From: Bordetella parapertussis
GTDB taxonomy: Bacteria; Pseudomonadota; Gammaproteobacteria; Burkholderiales; SG8-41
Direction of reading: 5' to 3'
NCBI GenBank assembly: GCA_945906815.1
Contig: CAMDRT010000013.1
Location: 1 to 64,000 of the forward strand
DNA length: 64,000 nucleotides
Position numbers and translations under genes: made by a program. Under the pieces are notes generated by a model, which saw only the letters and a list, made by a program, of their open reading frames with translations, had not been told where the DNA came from and did no database searches. Every line of letters starts with the position of its first letter. Within the stretch, counting starts at the first letter, position 1. Shown piece by piece: positions 19,120 to 27,258 of the stretch.

Positions 19120-20172
19120 ATGCACATGCAATCGCTAACACATCTCGCTCTGGGCTGGGTAGAGCGGGGCCGGGTGCCCGACGCGCTGATCCGCGCCGGC
19201 ATTCGCCGTCTGCTCAAACAACGTTTGGCGGAAATTCAGGCGGGTGATTGCGCTGCGGCAGCAGAACTCAGCGACGTTTTCCTCTCCGCGTTGCAAAGGG
19301 CAGCTGTAGCACTGGTGCCTGAAAAGGCCAATGCGCAGCATTACGATGTGCCCGCAGCGTTTTTTGGCCAGGTGTTGGGTCAGCACCGCAAATACAGTTC
19401 GTGCTGGTGGCCTGAGGGTGTCAGCACGCTGGACGCTGCCGAAGCCGTTGCGCTGGAAGCCACCTGCGCGCGCGCCGGCTTGGTCGATGGGCAGGAAATC
19501 CTGGAACTCGGCTGTGGCTGGGGTTCATTGACACTCTGGATGGCTGCGCACTATCCCGCCAGCCGCATTACGGCGGTTTCCAATTCACACCACCAGCGCG
19601 CCTATATCGAGGCCGAGGCGGCGCGCCGCAATCTGGGCAACGTGCGCATTATCACCACGGACATGAATTCGTTCGAGGCACCCGGACGCTATGAGCGCAT
19701 TGTCTCGGTGGAAATGTTTGAGCATATGCGCAACTGGCCGGTGCTGTTTAAACGGGTCAGCGGCTGGCTCAAGGATGAAGGCCGCTTTTTCATGCATGTG
19801 TTTGTCCATCGCCTGACCCCCTACGCTTTCGTCGAGCGCGGCGATGATGACTGGATGAGCCGTTTTTTCTTCTCGGGCGGCATGATGCCGAGCGACGATT
19901 TGGCGCTGCGCTGTCAGAACGACCTGCGTGTCACGCGTGTATGGCGCTGGGACGGCACCCACTACCAGCGCACCGCGAACGCCTGGCTTGCCAACATGGA
20001 TGCCCGCCGCGCCGCTGTGCAGCCCGTGCTGGAGCAGACCTACGGACGTGAACAATTCACCCTCTGGTGGATGCGCTGGCGCATTTTTTTCATGTCCTGT
20101 GCTGAATTGTTCGGTTACGACAACGGCCAGCAATGGTGGGTGACGCATTATCTGTTTGAGCGCCGTGCATGA
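19120..20172 (+). CDS. cyclopropane-fatty-acyl-phospholipid synthase-like methyltransferase (first copy)
   Basis: This is a 350-residue SAM-dependent methyltransferase. The substrate-side motif is QHYDVPAAFF (73-82), then KYSSCWW. The SAM loop is ILELGCGWGSLTLW (127-140), followed by VSVEMFEHMRNW and a C-terminus with WWVTHYLFERR. The N-terminus is shorter than in true CFA synthases, and the HYDVP/KYSSCWW form resembles the plant coclaurine N-methyltransferase-like branch. It may therefore methylate a fatty-acyl double bond without ring closure, or another substrate. A second Met lies at residue 3. It opens a run of eight overlapping or closely spaced genes, with its stop overlapping the next start by 4 nt. 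Confidence 0.85.
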   Translation: MHMQSLTHLALGWVERGRVPDALIRAGIRRLLKQRLAEIQAGDCAAAAELSDVFLSALQRAAVALVPEKANAQHYDVPAAFFGQVLGQHRKYSSCWWPEGVSTLDAAEAVALEATCARAGLVDGQEILELGCGWGSLTLWMAAHYPASRITAVSNSHHQRAYIEAEAARRNLGNVRIITTDMNSFEAPGRYERIVSVEMFEHMRNWPVLFKRVSGWLKDEGRFFMHVFVHRLTPYAFVERGDDDWMSRFFFSGGMMPSDDLALRCQNDLRVTRVWRWDGTHYQRTANAWLANMDARRAAVQPVLEQTYGREQFTLWWMRWRIFFMSCAELFGYDNGQQWWVTHYLFERRA

Positions 20173-20693
20173 TCGCGAATATCGTCCTGTTCCAGGTGGG
20201 GTGGTTAGCCTGCGTACTGGGCGCGGCACAAGGGCTGCCGTGGCTCGGCACCGGCGTAGCCGTGGCCGTCGTTGCATGGCACGCCTTGCACGCGGTGCGG
20301 CCTGCCGCGGAACTCAAGCTCATCGCCATCGTGCTGCTGATTGGCGCTGTTTGGGATAGCCTGCTGGTCTGCCTCGGATGGATCGCCTATGCCGAAGGCA
20401 CGTTTATGGCCGGTGTAGCGCCGCACTGGATATGGGCGCTGTGGGCGTTGTTCGCCACCACCCTGAATGTTTCGCTGCGCTGGCTCAAGCAGCGTCCCCT
20501 GCTTGCCTTGTTACTGGGCGCTGTGTGCGGTCCGTTATCCTACTGGGGCGCAGTGCGTTTGGGTGCGGCCACTTTTACCCAGCCCACAGCAGCGCTCATC
20601 GCGCTGGCCGTGGGCTGGGCGCTAATCATGCCCGCACTGATGATGCTGGCGCAGCGTTTTGATCGCATCACCCCGCAGGAGGTCAAAGCATGA
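20169..20693 (+). CDS. DUF2878 integral membrane protein
   Basis: The product has 174 residues with about five hydrophobic helices (near 3-22, 25-45, 50-75, 82-105 and 110-165). The layout and the GAVWDSLLVCLGWIAYAEG and PLSYWGAVRLGA stretches match the DUF2878 family. The biochemical role is not known. The family is recurrently found beside CFA-like methyltransferases and DUF1295 proteins, which suggests a job in membrane lipid remodelling. Both ends overlap neighbours by 4 nt (ATGA), so expression is translationally coupled to the methyltransferase upstream and DUF1295 downstream. Confidence 0.82.
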   Translation: MIANIVLFQVGWLACVLGAAQGLPWLGTGVAVAVVAWHALHAVRPAAELKLIAIVLLIGAVWDSLLVCLGWIAYAEGTFMAGVAPHWIWALWALFATTLNVSLRWLKQRPLLALLLGAVCGPLSYWGAVRLGAATFTQPTAALIALAVGWALIMPALMMLAQRFDRITPQEVKA

Positions 20694-21484
20694 GTGGATT
20701 AACCACAAGCTATCCTGTGCTCTTGGCTGCATTTTTGGGCTTAGGCGCAATGCTGTTATTGGCGGTCGGCACGTGGCTGATCAGTCTCGCCAAGCGTGAT
20801 GTCAGCATCGTCGACAGCGTGTGGTCGGCACTGATCTTTCTGGGTGCGGCGGTCTACGCCTGTGCCTTGCCACAGCCGGGCCCGCGCACAACGCTGGTGC
20901 TGGTGCTCGCGGCGTTGTGGGCCATACGGCTCGCCGGCTATATCGCCTGGCGCAACTGGGGCGAGCCCGAAGACCGGCGCTACGTCGAAATTCGTGCGCG
21001 CAATCAGCCGCACTTCGCGTGCAAGAGTTTGTATCTGGTGTTTATCCTGCAAGCAGTGCTGGCATGGATAGTTTCGGCGGCGCCGATGGGCGCGTTGATC
21101 GGCTTGAGCGCCTTGGATTGGCTGGATGGCTTGGGTGCCGCCGTGGTGATATTCGGCATCGCGTTTGAAGCGGTGGGCGATGGGCAACTGGCCGCCTTTA
21201 AAGCCCATCCGCAAAACCGTGGAAAAGTCATGGACCAGGGGCTGTGGCATTACACGCGCCATCCGAACTATTTCGGCGAGTTTTGCGTGTGGTGGGGTTT
21301 TTACCTGATCGCGCTGTCGGCCGGCGGCTGGTGGGCCATGGTGTCGCCGCTGTTGATGTCGCTACTGCTGCTGAAAGTCTCCGGCGTCACCCTGCTGGAA
21401 AAAGACCTCACCGAACGCCGCCCACAGTATCGCGATTACATCGCACACACCAATGCGTTTTTCCCGGGCATCCCTAAAAAATAA
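20690..21484 (+). CDS. DUF1295 membrane protein, steroid 5-alpha-reductase/ICMT-like
   Basis: The product has 264 residues and about six membrane helices. The C-terminal motif DQGLWHYTRHPNYFGE and the following WGFYLIAL are the conserved core of DUF1295. It resembles the cofactor-binding end of steroid 5-alpha-reductases and isoprenylcysteine methyltransferases. A reductase or methyltransferase acting on a membrane lipid is therefore plausible, with NADPH or SAM as cofactor, but neither is shown. The gene overlaps DUF2878 upstream by 4 nt and the next gene by one base (TAATG). Confidence 0.87.
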   Translation: MSGLTTSYPVLLAAFLGLGAMLLLAVGTWLISLAKRDVSIVDSVWSALIFLGAAVYACALPQPGPRTTLVLVLAALWAIRLAGYIAWRNWGEPEDRRYVEIRARNQPHFACKSLYLVFILQAVLAWIVSAAPMGALIGLSALDWLDGLGAAVVIFGIAFEAVGDGQLAAFKAHPQNRGKVMDQGLWHYTRHPNYFGEFCVWWGFYLIALSAGGWWAMVSPLLMSLLLLKVSGVTLLEKDLTERRPQYRDYIAHTNAFFPGIPKK

Positions 21485-22122
21485 TGCTCCCACCCATGCG
21501 AAAACTTTTACTGTGCATGGCGCTATCGGCAGGCACCGCAGCGCACGCGCAACAATGGCATTTTCAGGTGTTTCTCGATGACAAACCCATCGGGCATCAT
21601 CATTACACCCTGCGTCATAGTAGCGAGCATGCCGCGGAGCGCGAGTTGAAAAGCGAAGCGCGTTTCGATGTGAAGCTGCTGTTCATCAACGCCTACCGCT
21701 ATGGGCATGACGCGAGCGAACGCTGGCGCGGCAATTGCATCGCACGTCTCCATGCGCGCACCGACGACAACGGCGAACCCAGCGCAGTTGACGCCGAGCA
21801 GCAAGGCGACAAAGTGACGATTACCACGCTGCGCGGGCGCGATTCCGCGGACGGCTGCCTGATGACTTATGCATACTGGAACATCGATATCCTGAAGCAA
21901 AAAAAGCTGCTGAATACGCAAACCGGCACGGTGGAGTCCGTGACGATCGCCGCGCTCGGCGACGACACCATCACCGTGCGCGGCGCGCCGGTGGTGGCGC
22001 AGCGCTATCGCGTCTCAGGCGGCAAAAACAGCATCGAACTTTGGTACGGCGCAGACCAGGGGTGGCTCGCGTTGCAATCCACACTCAATAGCGGACGCAA
22101 ACTGCGCTACCAGCTGAAATGA
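21484..22122 (+). CDS. exported DUF6134-like protein
   Basis: The product has 212 residues. The start at 21484 overlaps the previous stop (TAATG), and Met5 (21496) is an alternative that gives a cleaner signal peptide, MRKLLLCMALSAGTAAHAQ. The mature part is beta-rich: WHFQVFLDDKPIGHHHYTL, then a KSEARFDVKLLFINAYRY strand, and a closing YGADQGWLALQSTLNSGRKLRYQLK. This fits DUF6134-type periplasmic proteins of unknown function that accompany lipid-modification genes. A lipid-binding or lipid-shuttling role in the periplasm is inference. Confidence 0.7.
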   Translation: MLPPMRKLLLCMALSAGTAAHAQQWHFQVFLDDKPIGHHHYTLRHSSEHAAERELKSEARFDVKLLFINAYRYGHDASERWRGNCIARLHARTDDNGEPSAVDAEQQGDKVTITTLRGRDSADGCLMTYAYWNIDILKQKKLLNTQTGTVESVTIAALGDDTITVRGAPVVAQRYRVSGGKNSIELWYGADQGWLALQSTLNSGRKLRYQLK

Positions 22123-22147
22123 AAAATTATTTTATAAAACAAATTCT

Positions 22148-23101
22148 ATGGAAAACATAAACGCTGGGGCGAGCCGTTGGCACAGCCTCTGGACCTGGTT
22201 CGACAACGAAGCGGCGGTAGTGCACAGGGATGGCGTGCCCGCGCGCGGCATCGATTGGCCCCGCATGCTGCCCTTCGTCGCACTACATCTGGGGTGTTTC
22301 GCCGCCATCTGGGTGGGCATCAGCACCACTGCCGTCATCGCGGCAGTCTGCCTCTACGCACTGCGCATGTTCGCGATTACCGGGTTTTACCATCGCTATT
22401 TTTCGCACAACGCGTTTCGTACTTCGCGCGCCATGCAGTTCCTCTTCGCGCTGATCGGTGCGACGGGCGTACAACGCGGCGCGTTATGGTGGGCCTCACA
22501 GCACCGGCACCATCACGCGCATTCCGATCAGCCGGAGGATGTGCATTCGGCGCAACAGCACGGCTTTTTCTGGAGTCATATGGGTTGGTTTATGGCGCAC
22601 CAGAACTTTGCCACCCGCCGCGAGCGCATCACCCATTTACTGCGTTACCCGGAACTGCGCTTTCTGGATCGCTACGATGCGCTGGTGCCGCTGTTGTTTG
22701 CGCTGATGCTCTACGCTACCGGAGAAGCACTCGCGCACTGTGCACCCGCGCTGCAGGTCAATGGCTGGCAAATGGTGGTATGGTGCTTTTGCATTTCCAC
22801 GGTGGCGCTGTACCACGCGACCTTCACCATTAATTCGCTGACCCATCGCTACGGCCGCCGCCGCTACGCCACGCGCGACGACTCACGTAATAATGTGTGG
22901 CTGGCGCTGCTGACATTCGGCGAAGGCTGGCACAACAATCACCACCATTTCCCCGGCGCTGTACGGCAGGGATTTTTCTGGTGGGAAATAGACCTTACCT
23001 ACTACGGCCTGCGCGTGCTGGCAGCTCTGGGCATCATCTGGGACTTAAAGGAAGTGCCCGCGACGATGCTGCACGCGCGGCAACACACGCCGGAAAAATG
23101 A
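22148..23101 (+). CDS. membrane fatty-acid desaturase (delta-9 acyl-lipid/acyl-CoA type)
   Basis: This 317-residue membrane di-iron enzyme has all three histidine boxes: HRYFSH (82-87), HRHHH (119-123) and HNNHH (262-266). Hydrophobic segments lie at about 41-78 and 178-222. The spacing is that of stearoyl-CoA/DesC desaturases, which use O2 and electrons from a reductase to place a cis double bond. Its product could be the substrate for the methyltransferases at either end of the locus. The leader has ATAAAACAAAT (22134-22144) instead of a Shine-Dalgarno. The 3' end overlaps the flavoprotein gene by 4 nt. Confidence 0.92.
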   Translation: MENINAGASRWHSLWTWFDNEAAVVHRDGVPARGIDWPRMLPFVALHLGCFAAIWVGISTTAVIAAVCLYALRMFAITGFYHRYFSHNAFRTSRAMQFLFALIGATGVQRGALWWASQHRHHHAHSDQPEDVHSAQQHGFFWSHMGWFMAHQNFATRRERITHLLRYPELRFLDRYDALVPLLFALMLYATGEALAHCAPALQVNGWQMVVWCFCISTVALYHATFTINSLTHRYGRRRYATRDDSRNNVWLALLTFGEGWHNNHHHFPGAVRQGFFWWEIDLTYYGLRVLAALGIIWDLKEVPATMLHARQHTPEK

Positions 23102-24372
23102 AAATTGCCATTATTGGCAGCGGCATTGCCGGCAATGTGGTGGCACATCATTTGCATCGCACACACGACATTGCCGTGTTTGAGGCCGCCAGTCACATTG
23201 GCGGCCACACGCATACCCACACCGTTGCGCTGGATGGCGAACGCCATCACATCGACACCGGCTTTATCGTTTTCAACGACTGGACCTACCCCAACTTTAT
23301 GGCGCTGTTGCATGAGCTGGAGGTCGAATCGCAGCCGTCGGCCATGAGTTTCAGTGTGCGCAATGAGGCTAGCGGGCTGGAATACAACGGCACCACGCTC
23401 AACACCCTGTTTGCGCAAAGACGCAATCTGCTGCGGCCGTCATTTCATCGCATGCTGCGCGACATCCTACGGTTTAACCGTGAAGCGCCCGCGCTGCTGA
23501 ACAGCGTGCAGGAAACCAATCTCGGCCGCTATCTGGCCGAGGGCCAATATTCGCAGCAGTTTATAAACGATTACCTGATACCGATGGGCGCGGCCATCTG
23601 GTCTACTGATCCACAGCGCATGCTGTCATTTCCAGCGCGCTACTTTGTGCAGTTTTTTCATAACCACGGCATGCTGTCGGTGGATAAGCGTCCGCAATGG
23701 CGCGCGATTCGTGGCGGCTCAGCACGCTATGTCGAAAAGCTGGTAGCGCCCTTTAAGCAGCGCATACGCTTGAATACGCCCGTGCAAAGCGTGCGGCGGC
23801 TACCCGACGGCGTGATGATCAAGACGCCTAACGCGGAGGCAGAACGCTTCGACCAGGTGTTTTTGGCCTGCCACTCAGATCAGGCGCTGGGCCTGCTGGC
23901 AGACGCCTCGCCGCTCGAAAAATCGGTGCTTGGCGCTATCCCGTATCAGGAAAACGAAGCCGTGCTGCACACCGACACCGCACTGCTGCCGCGCAATCGC
24001 CGCGCCTGGGCGGCATGGAACTATCATGTGATGGGCCATCCAGCGTCGTCGCGCGCCACGCTCACCTACAACATGAATACGCTGCAAAGTCTGCAATCGC
24101 GCCACACTTTCTGTGTGACGCTAAACCGCAGCGCGCACATTGCGCCTGCCAAAGTCATCCAGCGTCTGCTGTACCACCATCCGCTGTACACCCCGGCAGG
24201 CGTGGCGGCGCAGCAGCGGCAGCACGAAGTCAATGGCGTCAATCGCACCTACTTCTGTGGCGCCTACTGGCGTTTCGGGTTTCATGAAGACGGTGTCGTC
24301 AGCGGGCTGAACGCGCTGAAGCACTTTGAGCAAGCCACCCATGCACAGCGCGATTTATCACGGGTGGCTTAG
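23098..24372 (+). CDS. FAD-dependent amine-oxidase-like flavoprotein
   Basis: The true start is the ATG at 23098, overlapping the desaturase stop (ATGA). The frame is open to 22897 but only as a shadow of the desaturase. The 424-residue product begins MKIAIIGSGIAGNVVAHHL, a Rossmann GxGxxG (7-12), with the acidic ribose contact in VFEAASHIGGHTHTH. Later FAD contacts include NRTYFCGAYWRFGFHEDGVVSG near the end. This COG2907-type oxidoreductase occurs with DUF1365 and CFA-like genes in many proteobacteria. A relative takes part in unusual fatty-acid synthesis in Rhodobacter sphaeroides, according to my recollection of furan fatty-acid work. It probably oxidises a methylated acyl chain. Confidence 0.88.
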   Translation: MKIAIIGSGIAGNVVAHHLHRTHDIAVFEAASHIGGHTHTHTVALDGERHHIDTGFIVFNDWTYPNFMALLHELEVESQPSAMSFSVRNEASGLEYNGTTLNTLFAQRRNLLRPSFHRMLRDILRFNREAPALLNSVQETNLGRYLAEGQYSQQFINDYLIPMGAAIWSTDPQRMLSFPARYFVQFFHNHGMLSVDKRPQWRAIRGGSARYVEKLVAPFKQRIRLNTPVQSVRRLPDGVMIKTPNAEAERFDQVFLACHSDQALGLLADASPLEKSVLGAIPYQENEAVLHTDTALLPRNRRAWAAWNYHVMGHPASSRATLTYNMNTLQSLQSRHTFCVTLNRSAHIAPAKVIQRLLYHHPLYTPAGVAAQQRQHEVNGVNRTYFCGAYWRFGFHEDGVVSGLNALKHFEQATHAQRDLSRVA

Positions 24373-25132
24373 GCACCGGCGCTTTGCGCCGCGCTGGCAT
24401 GCGTTTCGTTACCCGCTGTTTTTGATGTACCTCGATCTGGCCGAGCTGGATGAGGTATTTCGTGGACGCTGGTTCTGGTCAACCCGCCGCCACGCGCTGG
24501 CGCGATTTGACCGCGCCGATCATCTGGGCGACCCCGCGGTGCCGCTGCATCAGGCGGTGCGCGATCTGGTGCAAAGTGAGACGGGCGTGCGTCCGCGCGG
24601 CGCGATTCGTCTACTCACCCATCTGCGTTACTTCGGGCACTGCTTCAATCCAGTGAGTTTTTACTATTGCTTTGATGCCGCAGGCGCCCACGTGGATTGC
24701 ATCGTGGCTGAAGTCAATAACACGCCTTGGGGTGAACGCCACTGTTATGTCTTGAGCCAACCGCTGCAGGCAGTTCCGGGCAAGCATCAGCGCTACCACA
24801 GCGAAAAATTACTCCACGTGTCGCCGTTCATGCCCATGCACCTGGATTATGAGTGGGGCTTTTCCAGTCCCGGGGCAAAGCTGAACGTGCATATGGCGTT
24901 GCGCGATCACGTTGCGGTACGCAACGAGGCCTCGCACAAGGTTTTTGATGCCACCCTGCAACTGCACCACGCACCCGTTACCGGCGCACGGCTGGCGCGA
25001 CTGTTGCTGCGTTTTCCGTTAATGACCTTGCAAGTCATCGCGGCCATCCACTGGCAGGCCCTCAGGTTGTGGATCAAGGGCGTGCCCGTGCACACTCATC
25101 CGCAAAACCTGAAACCGCCCGCCACACTCTAG
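24341..25132 (+). CDS. DUF1365 protein
   Basis: The family start MHSAIYHGWLRHRRFAP is at 24341. A Met five codons earlier (24326) is possible but lies further inside the preceding gene. Either way the gene overlaps the flavoprotein gene by 32-47 nt. The product has 263 residues with LRYFGHCFNPVSFYYCFD, AEVNNTPWGERHCYVL and FMPMHLDYEWGFSSPG, all signature blocks of DUF1365. Function is unknown. The family is nearly always beside this flavoprotein and a CFA synthase, so it is a likely partner protein in acyl-chain modification. Confidence 0.9.
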   Translation: MHSAIYHGWLRHRRFAPRWHAFRYPLFLMYLDLAELDEVFRGRWFWSTRRHALARFDRADHLGDPAVPLHQAVRDLVQSETGVRPRGAIRLLTHLRYFGHCFNPVSFYYCFDAAGAHVDCIVAEVNNTPWGERHCYVLSQPLQAVPGKHQRYHSEKLLHVSPFMPMHLDYEWGFSSPGAKLNVHMALRDHVAVRNEASHKVFDATLQLHHAPVTGARLARLLLRFPLMTLQVIAAIHWQALRLWIKGVPVHTHPQNLKPPATL

Positions 25133-25166
25133 CCCTCATGAAAAGTGCAATAAAACAAATACTTAT

Positions 25167-26465
25167 ATGAGAACCGTCACTACACTCAGCACCCCAGCCG
25201 CACCCAAGCCGCACTTTCTCGATGGCAGGGCGGCGCAGGCCGTGCGAGGCCGTCTCGCCGGCCTTGCGCACGGCATCATTACGCTGGTTGATGGCGGGCA
25301 CAGCACACACTACGGCAGGCTGACAGATCGCTGTCCGCTCAGCGCGACACTGCATATACAGGATCCACGCTTCTACAGCGAGATCGCGTTTGGCGGCAGC
25401 GTCGGCGCGGGCGAGGCCTTTATGCAGGACTACTGGCGCGTGGACAACCTGACGAGGCTGATGCGCATCCTGCTCCAAAACCGCGCTGTGCTGGACGGCA
25501 TGGAAACCGGTCTCGCGCGACTCGCTGCACCCCTGCAAAAATTCTTGCACTGGATGTCACGCAATACCCGCAGCGGCAGCAGCCGCAACATTCAGGCGCA
25601 TTACGATCTGGGGAACGACTTGTTTGAACTGTTCCTCGACCCCACCCTGATGTATTCGAGCGCGATTTTTGAGCGTCCTGACATGACGCTTGAGCAGGGT
25701 TCGATTGCCAAGCTGGATCGCATTTGCCGCAAGCTCGCTCTGCAGCCCGGCGAGCGCGTGATCGAGATCGGTAGCGGCTGGGGTGGCTTTGCCCTACACG
25801 CCGCGCGACACTACGGCTGCCACGTCACCACCACCACTATTTCCCCCGCCCAGCATGCGCTGGCAGGAGAGCGCATAGCCGCCGCCGGGCTGTCCGGGCA
25901 AATCGAATTACTGCTGACAGACTATCGCGACCTGGGCCACGAGGGGGGCCAATATGACAAGCTGGTGTCCATCGAGATGATCGAAGCCGTGGGCTACCAA
26001 TACTACGACGCCTATTTTCGCAAATGCAGCGAGCTGCTCAAGCCTGAAGGTGCCATGCTTTTGCAAGCCATCACCATTGCCGACCAGCGCTATGAAGCCG
26101 CCAAAAACGCCGTGGATTTTATCCAGCGCTACATTTTTCCAGGCAGTTGCATACCCTCCGTTACTGCCATCAGCGATGCGGTATCGCGCGTCACCGACAT
26201 GCGCGTGTTTCATCTGGAAGATATCGGCCCCCACTACGCAACCACACTGGGCATGTGGCACGACAACTTTAATGCGCAACTGGAACAAGTCAGGAAGCTG
26301 GGTTACCCCGAAACGTTCATCCGCATGTGGCAGTTCTATTTGTGTTACTGCGAGGCGGGCTTTAGGGAGCGCGTGATAGGCGACGTGCAGATGTTGCTGA
26401 TCAAGCCACGCTGCCGCTTGCCGGCACTCACCCCATCACTCCACGGCACGCCGCACGTGCGGTGA
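25167..26465 (+). CDS. cfa: cyclopropane-fatty-acyl-phospholipid synthase (second copy)
   Basis: The product has 432 residues, the length of a classical CFA synthase with its extra N-terminal domain (about 1-125). AHYDLGNDLFELFLDPTLMY (144-163), the SAM loop RVIEIGSGWGGFAL (197-210), VSIEMIEAVGYQYYDAYF and IFPGSCIPS match the enzyme core, including the Glu and Tyr positions used for bicarbonate-assisted ring closure. It transfers a methylene from SAM to a cis double bond of a membrane phospholipid. It closes the lipid locus, 34 nt after DUF1365. It has ATAAAACAAAT (25150-25160) just before the start and no obvious Shine-Dalgarno. Confidence 0.9.
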   Translation: MRTVTTLSTPAAPKPHFLDGRAAQAVRGRLAGLAHGIITLVDGGHSTHYGRLTDRCPLSATLHIQDPRFYSEIAFGGSVGAGEAFMQDYWRVDNLTRLMRILLQNRAVLDGMETGLARLAAPLQKFLHWMSRNTRSGSSRNIQAHYDLGNDLFELFLDPTLMYSSAIFERPDMTLEQGSIAKLDRICRKLALQPGERVIEIGSGWGGFALHAARHYGCHVTTTTISPAQHALAGERIAAAGLSGQIELLLTDYRDLGHEGGQYDKLVSIEMIEAVGYQYYDAYFRKCSELLKPEGAMLLQAITIADQRYEAAKNAVDFIQRYIFPGSCIPSVTAISDAVSRVTDMRVFHLEDIGPHYATTLGMWHDNFNAQLEQVRKLGYPETFIRMWQFYLCYCEAGFRERVIGDVQMLLIKPRCRLPALTPSLHGTPHVR

Positions 26466-26953: not shown

Positions 26954-27258
26954 TTTTAAATAATGATTTTGCACTACGACTTCATGCTACGCCCGCACCC
27001 CATGCGGGTCAAACAAAAGGTTTTATCCTAAACCCGGCTGCTCAGCCACAGAGGGCACCGAGGAACACAGCGCAAACCAGTGCTTGCAATCGCTCGTCAC
27101 ACGCACCTGTTTGGTGACAGGACCTATCGCTCCAACTGGTTGATTTACCTCTGTAAACTCTGTGTCTGTGGCCAAACCAGGCGCCGCACAGGTCACGCAC
27201 CAGAAGCAGACGTTCGTAGCGCCATATAGAAGACACCGCAATGTTGCGCATATTTTTG
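26954..27258. other. intergenic stretch with degenerate CTCTGTG-type repeats
   Basis: There is no gene here. On the minus strand 27030-27075 reads like the element at 52284-52320 (GCGCTGTGT...CCTCTGTGGC), and 27143-27175 carries a plus-strand version (CTCTGTGTCTGTGGCC). The remainder shows nothing I can name apart from the likely upstream region of the CBS gene. Confidence 0.45.

Follow-up and report, generated by a model that had tools for sequence, protein, structure and literature searches.

We identified, in a 64,000-nt stretch of DNA from Bordetella parapertussis (positions 1 to 64,000 of contig CAMDRT010000013.1, assembly GCA_945906815.1; the whole stretch is hereafter the window), an eight-gene locus that is quite probably a single-operon cassette for making furan fatty acids on phospholipid chains. 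Gene 1 is FufM-like and genes 6 to 8 are relatives of UfaD, UfaO and UfaM, so that all four types of furan enzymes come together in one operon with an SCD-type desaturase, and the predicted, likely product is a phospholipid chain bearing a dimethyl furan. Homology, clade membership, an active-site signature and a conserved gene order are the computed basis for this reading, from which we infer each reaction of the present organism, which chain serves as substrate, how the route begins and what the accessory genes do. The locus comprises:

19120..20172, + strand: gene 1, FufM-type short methyltransferase, 350 aa; Pfam CMAS
20169..20693, + strand: gene 2, DUF2878 protein, 174 aa; PF11086, 1.4e-44
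20690..21484, + strand: gene 3, DUF1295 protein, 264 aa; PF06966, 1.7e-70
21484..22122, + strand: gene 4, DUF6134 protein, 212 aa; PF19630, 4.5e-47
22123..22147, + strand: A/T-rich gap of 25 nt, a spot occupied by a lipocalin gene in relatives
22148..23101, + strand: gene 5, SCD/DesC-type desaturase, 317 aa; FA_desaturase PF00487, 3.6e-22
23098..24372, + strand: gene 6, UfaD-type FAD protein, 424 aa; Amino_oxidase PF01593
24326..25132, + strand: gene 7, UfaO-type DUF1365 protein, 268 aa, TTG start; PF07103, 2.3e-84
25167..26465, + strand: gene 8, UfaM-type full-length methyltransferase, 432 aa; Pfam CMAS

An earlier, sequence-only reading had described eight co-directional genes with overlaps at most junctions, and the coordinates of the open reading frames (ORFs) and the junction bases bear this out: the overlaps along the locus are of 4, 4, 1, 4 and 47 (or 32) nt, and the two other junctions are gaps of 25 and 34 nt. 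Gene 7 has an alternative start in the ORF list, the ATG at 24341; for the FAD ORF, the list gives a GTG further upstream, at 22897, the likelier start being the ATG at 23098. Pfam returned the families in the order given by that reading (CMAS, DUF2878, DUF1295, DUF6134, FA_desaturase, Amino_oxidase, DUF1365 and CMAS), and the membrane-lipid character that it had proposed is supported by the mapped gene order, the comparison with Rhodopseudomonas palustris and the methyltransferase tree.

Homologs of the furan fatty acid enzymes

The pathway chemistry was shown with genes from Rhodobacter sphaeroides and R. palustris, as described by Lemke et al. (2020; PMC7380195). UfaM methylates cis-vaccenate, UfaD (RSP1091) acts on phospholipid chains to form a conjugated diene with a methyl branch, UfaO (RSP1090, DUF1365) is required for the furan, whose oxygen derives from O2, and FufM (RPA0924), found in R. 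palustris and expressed in R. sphaeroides as a host, attaches the second methyl. The same paper gives the reductant of UfaO as not known, and furan fatty acids as apparently involved in protecting cells against membrane-damaging agents. The R. palustris genes ufaD-ufaO-ufaM are RPA2571-2570-2569, separate from fufM. In R. sphaeroides, ufaD and ufaO are together in the operon RSP1091-1087, as in the window, although ufaM (RSP2144) is located elsewhere; RSP1087-1089 are deletable without change in the fatty acid profile (PMC7380195).

For a direct comparison we used R. palustris XCP, one of five Rhodopseudomonas genomes searched for CMAS genes. It contains three with more than 100 bits, two full-length and one short. 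One of the full-length genes sits in a FAD-DUF1365-CMAS locus and was taken as ufaM; the short gene, the sole one of its kind above that score, was taken as fufM by elimination. Genes 6, 7 and 8 are adjacent homologs of UfaD, UfaO and UfaM in the R. palustris order, with identities to the XCP locus of 44% (421 aa, 344 bits), 35% (251 aa, 129 bits) and 37%, respectively. The R. sphaeroides furan pathway invoked in the sequence-only reading was an apt parallel, as judged from mapped homologs and clades. The window and R. palustris share the four enzyme families and an identical order of ufaD-ufaO-ufaM, but the R. palustris genes are in two separate loci and those of the window in one; also unlike the window, the Rhodopseudomonas stretches read (around 11–14 kb each) showed no match to the desaturase, DUF2878, DUF6134 or lipocalin. 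Profile searches of the PDB with DUF1365 yielded no credible match, and single-sequence fold models of DUF1365 and DUF6134 were discarded because of their mean predicted local distance difference test score (36.1 each).

In a 50-row tree, gene 8 belongs to a clade of 24 rows, with support of 100/98, having Gln at the equivalent of E. coli Cfa position 266; this clade includes the XCP UfaM, and leaves outside the other full-length enzyme from XCP, E. coli Cfa and the remaining His-bearing rows. In the alignment at Cfa positions 139, 239, 266, 268 and 317, which make up the active-site signature, gene 8 and XCP UfaM alike show S, E, Q, I and Y, and Cfa shows C, E, H, I and Y. The bicarbonate ligands of Cfa are Glu239, His266 and Tyr317 (PMC11387697); gene 8 departs from this canonical set of the cyclopropane synthases, keeping Glu and Tyr and having Gln at 266 and Ser at 139. 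It is also below the cut-off of every NCBIfam cyclopropane fatty acid (CFA) model matched, the best giving 281 bits for a cut-off of 400. The sequence-only reading had named it a full-length CFA synthase, a name that we revise; by clade, signature and neighbors, gene 8 is a putative UfaM, and we predict that it does not act as a canonical synthase of cyclopropane chains. Because of this clade and signature, the furan is favored, and the cyclopropane disfavored, among the product options that had been proposed.

We then collected 91 CMAS ORFs no shorter than 340 aa. Of these, 22 are of FufM type, with Phe at 268; the full-length ones divide into 52 with Gln and 17 with His. The fetched stretch contained DUF1365 for 42 of the 52 Gln rows, the window included, and for none of the 17 His rows, although these rows are mutually related, and for 14 of the His rows and the majority of the remaining 10 Gln rows the stretch extended only about 1.5 kb to either side of the match. 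All 42 full-length enzymes with DUF1365 in their stretch therefore carry Gln, which we read from the alignment as a candidate determinant. We found no paper dealing with Gln at this position among the matching papers listed in our literature searches. If confirmed by experiment, the Gln-for-His signature would help annotation to tell UfaM-type enzymes from true cyclopropane synthases, which carry one product name in the plasmid records examined. In another study, a Halomonas ufaM located beside ufaD and ufaO gave in E. coli a peak assigned to 11-methyloctadec-12-enoate (PMC12089945).

Gene 1 and the short XCP methyltransferase share 48.8% identity over 342 aa (315 bits), against 25–28% between gene 1 and each of seven full-length enzymes: E. 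coli Cfa, UfaM and the third enzyme from R. palustris, two Gln-type enzymes from phototrophs, an Acinetobacter enzyme and gene 8. Gene 1 is much further than gene 8 from the NCBIfam CFA models (143 bits), and in the 50-row tree it joins the other short proteins in one FufM-like clade with support of 100/100. The published identities to UfaM are 38% for RPA3082 and 26% for FufM (RPA0924) (Lemke et al., 2020; PMC7380195), and the XCP counterparts of these proteins are, respectively, 37 and 26% identical to one of the Gln-type phototroph enzymes. From its identity and clade, gene 1 is a predicted ortholog of R. palustris FufM, the equation with RPA0924 being by elimination, and this match makes a dimethyl-furan chain the likely product. 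The motif pairs quoted for the two methyltransferases (HYDVP/KYSSCWW in gene 1 and HYDLG/MYSSAIF in gene 8) read as stated, and their separate clades support the proposal that they probably carry out different steps. Methyltransferase matches turned up in 24 of 25 phototrophic genomes taken from a phylum sample, with scores of at most 129 bits and none of FufM type; by score, and by residue signature of those read, these matches are of CFA or UfaM type or unrelated.

The desaturase has the three His boxes previously noticed (HRYFSH, HRHHH and HNNHHH), and its family profile matches the structures of acyl-CoA desaturases 4ymk (3.3e-39) and 4zyo (3e-35). Gene 5 is thus a predicted SCD/DesC-type membrane fatty acid desaturase, akin to stearoyl-CoA desaturases, and its most likely role would be supplying the starting double bond. 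In the proposed route, gene 5 would introduce a cis double bond into a saturated chain, and gene 8 would then methylate that chain from S-adenosylmethionine, with migration of the double bond. The flavoprotein from gene 6 would form the conjugated methyl-diene, into which the product of gene 7 would insert an O2-derived oxygen, closing the ring to give a monomethyl furan; gene 1 would finally methylate this ring once more, yielding the dimethyl furan.

Among the papers listed in our searches of the open-access literature (titles, abstract openings and passages), we found none describing a locus that combines the four enzymes with a desaturase. The enzymes themselves are of known kinds, and what would be new is their combination in one locus with a desaturase. 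This compact set of eight genes is well suited for working out the furan lipid pathway: with its counterparts of the four enzymes and a constant group of partners yet to be studied, it provides a ready list of candidates for gaps in the pathway, such as the reductant for UfaO.

Alternative readings of the locus

Several observations weigh against the reading of the locus as a furan cassette. The chemistry is known from R. sphaeroides and R. palustris genes, and the present organism from sequence alone; moreover, the FufM match of gene 1 was reached by elimination, and in strain XCP rather than in CGA009. The FufM-type gene and ufaD-ufaO-ufaM lie apart in R. palustris, indicating that their co-location is not required. 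Likewise, the desaturase is missing from the ufaD-ufaO-ufaM stretch of XCP, from five of six annotated plasmid loci and from 11 of 33 stretches of the same family, so that the core pathway does not need a desaturase in the cluster. We also considered, and set aside, a replacement of FabA by the desaturase, by which FabA should be absent from genomes with the cluster desaturase and present in the others. The 20 genomes searched did not separate in this way: 19 had exactly one hit above 100 bits to the FabA/FabZ family, only G051 having two, and a single hit was found in six of the seven genomes whose mapped locus lacks the desaturase (G002, G010, G012, G014, G018, G020 and G051). This search included G025, a genome outside the set with mapped loci. 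In the window genome, the only hit is flanked by genes that by eye resemble lpxD and lpxA, and was taken as FabZ.

Plain identity does not tell UfaM from Cfa for gene 8, whose identity is 36.8% with XCP UfaM (264 bits) and 36.7% with E. coli Cfa (202 bits), and reaches 39.7%, over a shorter stretch, with the other full-length enzyme from XCP (204 bits). Gene 8 could then be an ordinary cyclopropane synthase, in a locus making cyclopropane chains and with a flavoprotein and a DUF1365 protein unrelated to furans; it does match the NCBIfam CFA models, albeit under their cut-offs, and cyclic chains were found in both the cfa and the ufaM strains of the Halomonas study (PMC12089945). Nevertheless, its clade and the changes of His266 to Gln and Cys139 to Ser are common to gene 8 and XCP UfaM, and neighbors of UfaD and UfaO type act in the furan pathway elsewhere (PMC7380195), making a cyclopropane product highly improbable. 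A similar question arises with gene 1, whose ten best matches among solved structures are all N-methyltransferases, the nearest being of the alkaloid (plant coclaurine) type, with 6gkv, a plant coclaurine N-methyltransferase, at the top (236 bits, against 91 for E. coli Cfa 6bqc). It might therefore be an N-methyltransferase acting on an amine or on a lipid head group, with no part in furan rings, while the other genes make a monomethyl furan. We regard this as unlikely, given the near-full-length identity of 49% to the XCP protein taken as FufM, and given that the fetched stretch holds DUF1365 for 19 of the 22 FufM-type rows, the remaining three being from Rhodopseudomonas. Arabidopsis LIME1, in turn, is itself coclaurine-methyltransferase-like. 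FufM is 37.9% identical to LIME1 (Omata et al., 2024; PMC10940516), so that the plant resemblance of gene 1 fits FufM.

It is also conceivable, if the less probable option, that the desaturase acts late, adding an extra double bond to the furan chain or producing a polyunsaturated chain, instead of setting the starting double bond. Elsewhere the core pathway works without a desaturase in the cluster, and starting chains could be provided by the one further desaturase gene found outside the clusters in the genome, which codes for 387 aa in contig C21. Acyl-CoA desaturases, however, which are the closest solved relatives of gene 5, act on saturated chains; its nearest plasmid relatives are annotated as acyl-CoA desaturase. 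Gene 5 is around 50% identical to desaturases on Acinetobacter and two cyanobacterial plasmids. As a separate observation, the C-terminal part of the C21 desaturase (L263, 1477-2640) also matches the transposase family DDE_Tnp_ISL3 (34.6 bits, cut-off 23).

Gene order and mobility of the cluster

The sequence-only reading had called for a search of genomes for the same gene order. Our map covered 39 stretches. Of these, 30 came from the taxonomic family of the window, drawn from 39 draft genomes with DUF1365 among 74 searched; the others were the window itself, two further contigs from its genome and six plasmid loci. The desaturase is present in 22 of the 33 same-family stretches (including the window and the two other contigs of its genome), where the order is FufM type, DUF2878, DUF1295, DUF6134, lipocalin, desaturase, UfaD, UfaO and UfaM. 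This order recurs, as far as each one reaches, in 21 stretches besides the window, with identities of 40–86%, indicating that the locus is more than chance. Among the 22, the FufM-type gene is present in 15, cut by the contig end in L010, L056, L059, L064 and L067, and missing in L065 and L066; the lipocalin (PF08212) occurs in 19, is lost to truncation in L064, and is missing in L066 and the window. The 11 other same-family stretches (L068-L078) contain only UfaD-UfaO-UfaM from the set, with a match resembling short-chain dehydrogenases/reductases nearby in all 11 and a photolyase match in six. Near-identical stretches across genomes (L010/L060, 100.0%; L053/L055, 98.4%) indicate that the stretches are not all independent. 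L053 and L055 are from genomes of two genera (G004 and G072) and their identity, over 10.3 kb, may be due to recent transfer or to mixed bins. Stretch L066, from a congener (G067, 45.6% G+C), has DUF2878, DUF1295, desaturase, UfaD, UfaO and UfaM without FufM, DUF6134 or lipocalin, and is perhaps an older form of the cassette.

In three congeners (L057, L063 and L065), the cluster lies between flanks whose matches are 42–90 nt apart on contig C3 of the window genome, at a cluster-free site that spans C3:181572 to 181615 in the alignment with L063; a fourth congener (L061) matches the C3 site on one side only. The window copy is located away from the site of the congeners. Its upstream flank is matched in 4 of 13 congeners and its downstream flank, with a CBS-domain gene, in 11 of 13, never on the contig bearing the cluster. 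We did not rely on the apparent presence of three cluster copies in the window genome (contigs C13, C82 and C72): the C72 stretch (L010) is 100.0% identical over 7765 nt to the cluster-bearing contig of G069 (L060), suggesting mixed bins in one of the two, and it is unsure to which genome C82, of 7.4 kb, belongs. In another genome, G063, several partial cluster matches on contigs C169, C228, C47, C316 and C38 suggest more than one copy, and the same may hold for the window genome.

Related sets occur on plasmids. Matches to the desaturase and to the FufM-type gene are about 5.1 kb apart on seven Acinetobacter plasmids, and Acinetobacter plasmid pYH12138-1 brings together, as the window does, the desaturase and the UfaD, UfaO, UfaM, DUF1295 and FufM types; unlike in the window, the DUF1295 and FufM genes come after rather than before the others, there is no match to DUF2878, DUF6134 or lipocalin, and the neighbors are photolyase and two-component genes. 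In plasmid loci from Shinella (L044), Mesorhizobium (L047) and Caballeronia (L045), DUF1295 adjoins the FufM type and is accompanied by the UfaD, UfaO and UfaM types but, in contrast to the window, no desaturase was matched; these loci adjoin genes for an extracytoplasmic function (ECF) sigma factor and an anti-sigma factor, of ChrR type or other, which were not found at the window. In plasmids of the Acinetobacter baumannii group (H90-H94), the match to the desaturase is split into two parts that together span 78% of the query, so that these copies look broken; intact relatives are found on other Acinetobacter plasmids.

Accessory genes and regulation

The DUF2878, DUF1295 and DUF6134 proteins would be accessory. 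DUF2878 is probably a small membrane-located protein, and its family profile had no match in the PDB up to an E value of 10. Deletion of the DUF2878 gene VC1123 in Vibrio cholerae altered porin expression and colonization, and the term "fatty acid" is absent from the text of that study (PMC12971978). The DUF1295 family profile shows distant similarity to the isoprenylcysteine methyltransferase ICMT (4a2n, 9.3e-5) and to a steroid 5-alpha-reductase (7c83, 6.6e-4). In strain XCP, the short methyltransferase gene is immediately preceded by a DUF1295 gene, probably the counterpart of RPA0923, which was also deleted by Lemke et al. (2020) according to their strain table (PMC7380195). DUF1295 adjoins the FufM-type gene in three Rhodopseudomonas stretches and in the five annotated plasmid loci having the FufM type, and in the window the DUF2878 gene stands between the two. 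DUF6134 (family alignment of 17 rows) is probably exported, with an N-terminal signal judged by eye, and its profile had no credible match in the PDB; together with the lipocalin added in relatives, it suggests a function in lipid handling or export outside the cytoplasm.

A more speculative possibility, which we consider rather doubtful, is that the locus makes a furan lipid of a new kind. The position of desaturation would fix the place of the furan, the reductase-like DUF1295 protein and DUF2878 would perform an additional modification in concert with FufM, and DUF6134 and lipocalin would move the lipid to the outer envelope, as a portable unit of membrane protection moved between sites and with related sets on plasmids.

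Regarding regulation, ufaM is induced by light in Pseudomonas mendocina and controlled by LitR in Pseudomonas putida (PMC9758184), and a predicted operon of Aeromonas salmonicida with cfa, FAD, DUF1365 and DUF2878 genes decreases with riboflavin (PMC10012899). One ECF and two anti-sigma queries gave no tblastn match within the window; control from another part of the genome is conceivable. Control by ChrR gained no support: in the genome as a whole, the best match to Cupin_7, on contig C10, is a cupin of 179 aa that by eye does not resemble ChrR. A regular-expression scan for ECF-like promoters upstream of FufM-type genes gave scattered hits only, several of the scanned rows being upstream of other CMAS genes, at loci having no FufM-type gene. 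Ahead of the FufM-type gene, three of the congener stretches (L057, L061 and L063) share GGTAAAAYATCACACT...GTACACAAT, which may be a promoter or operator and which by eye is absent upstream of gene 1 in the window. Finally, a repeat of around 150 nt (approximately 27019-27176 of the window), downstream of the CBS-domain gene, occurs in some 18 other places of the genome with 80–91% identity, many of them partial, and is likely a dispersed intergenic element.

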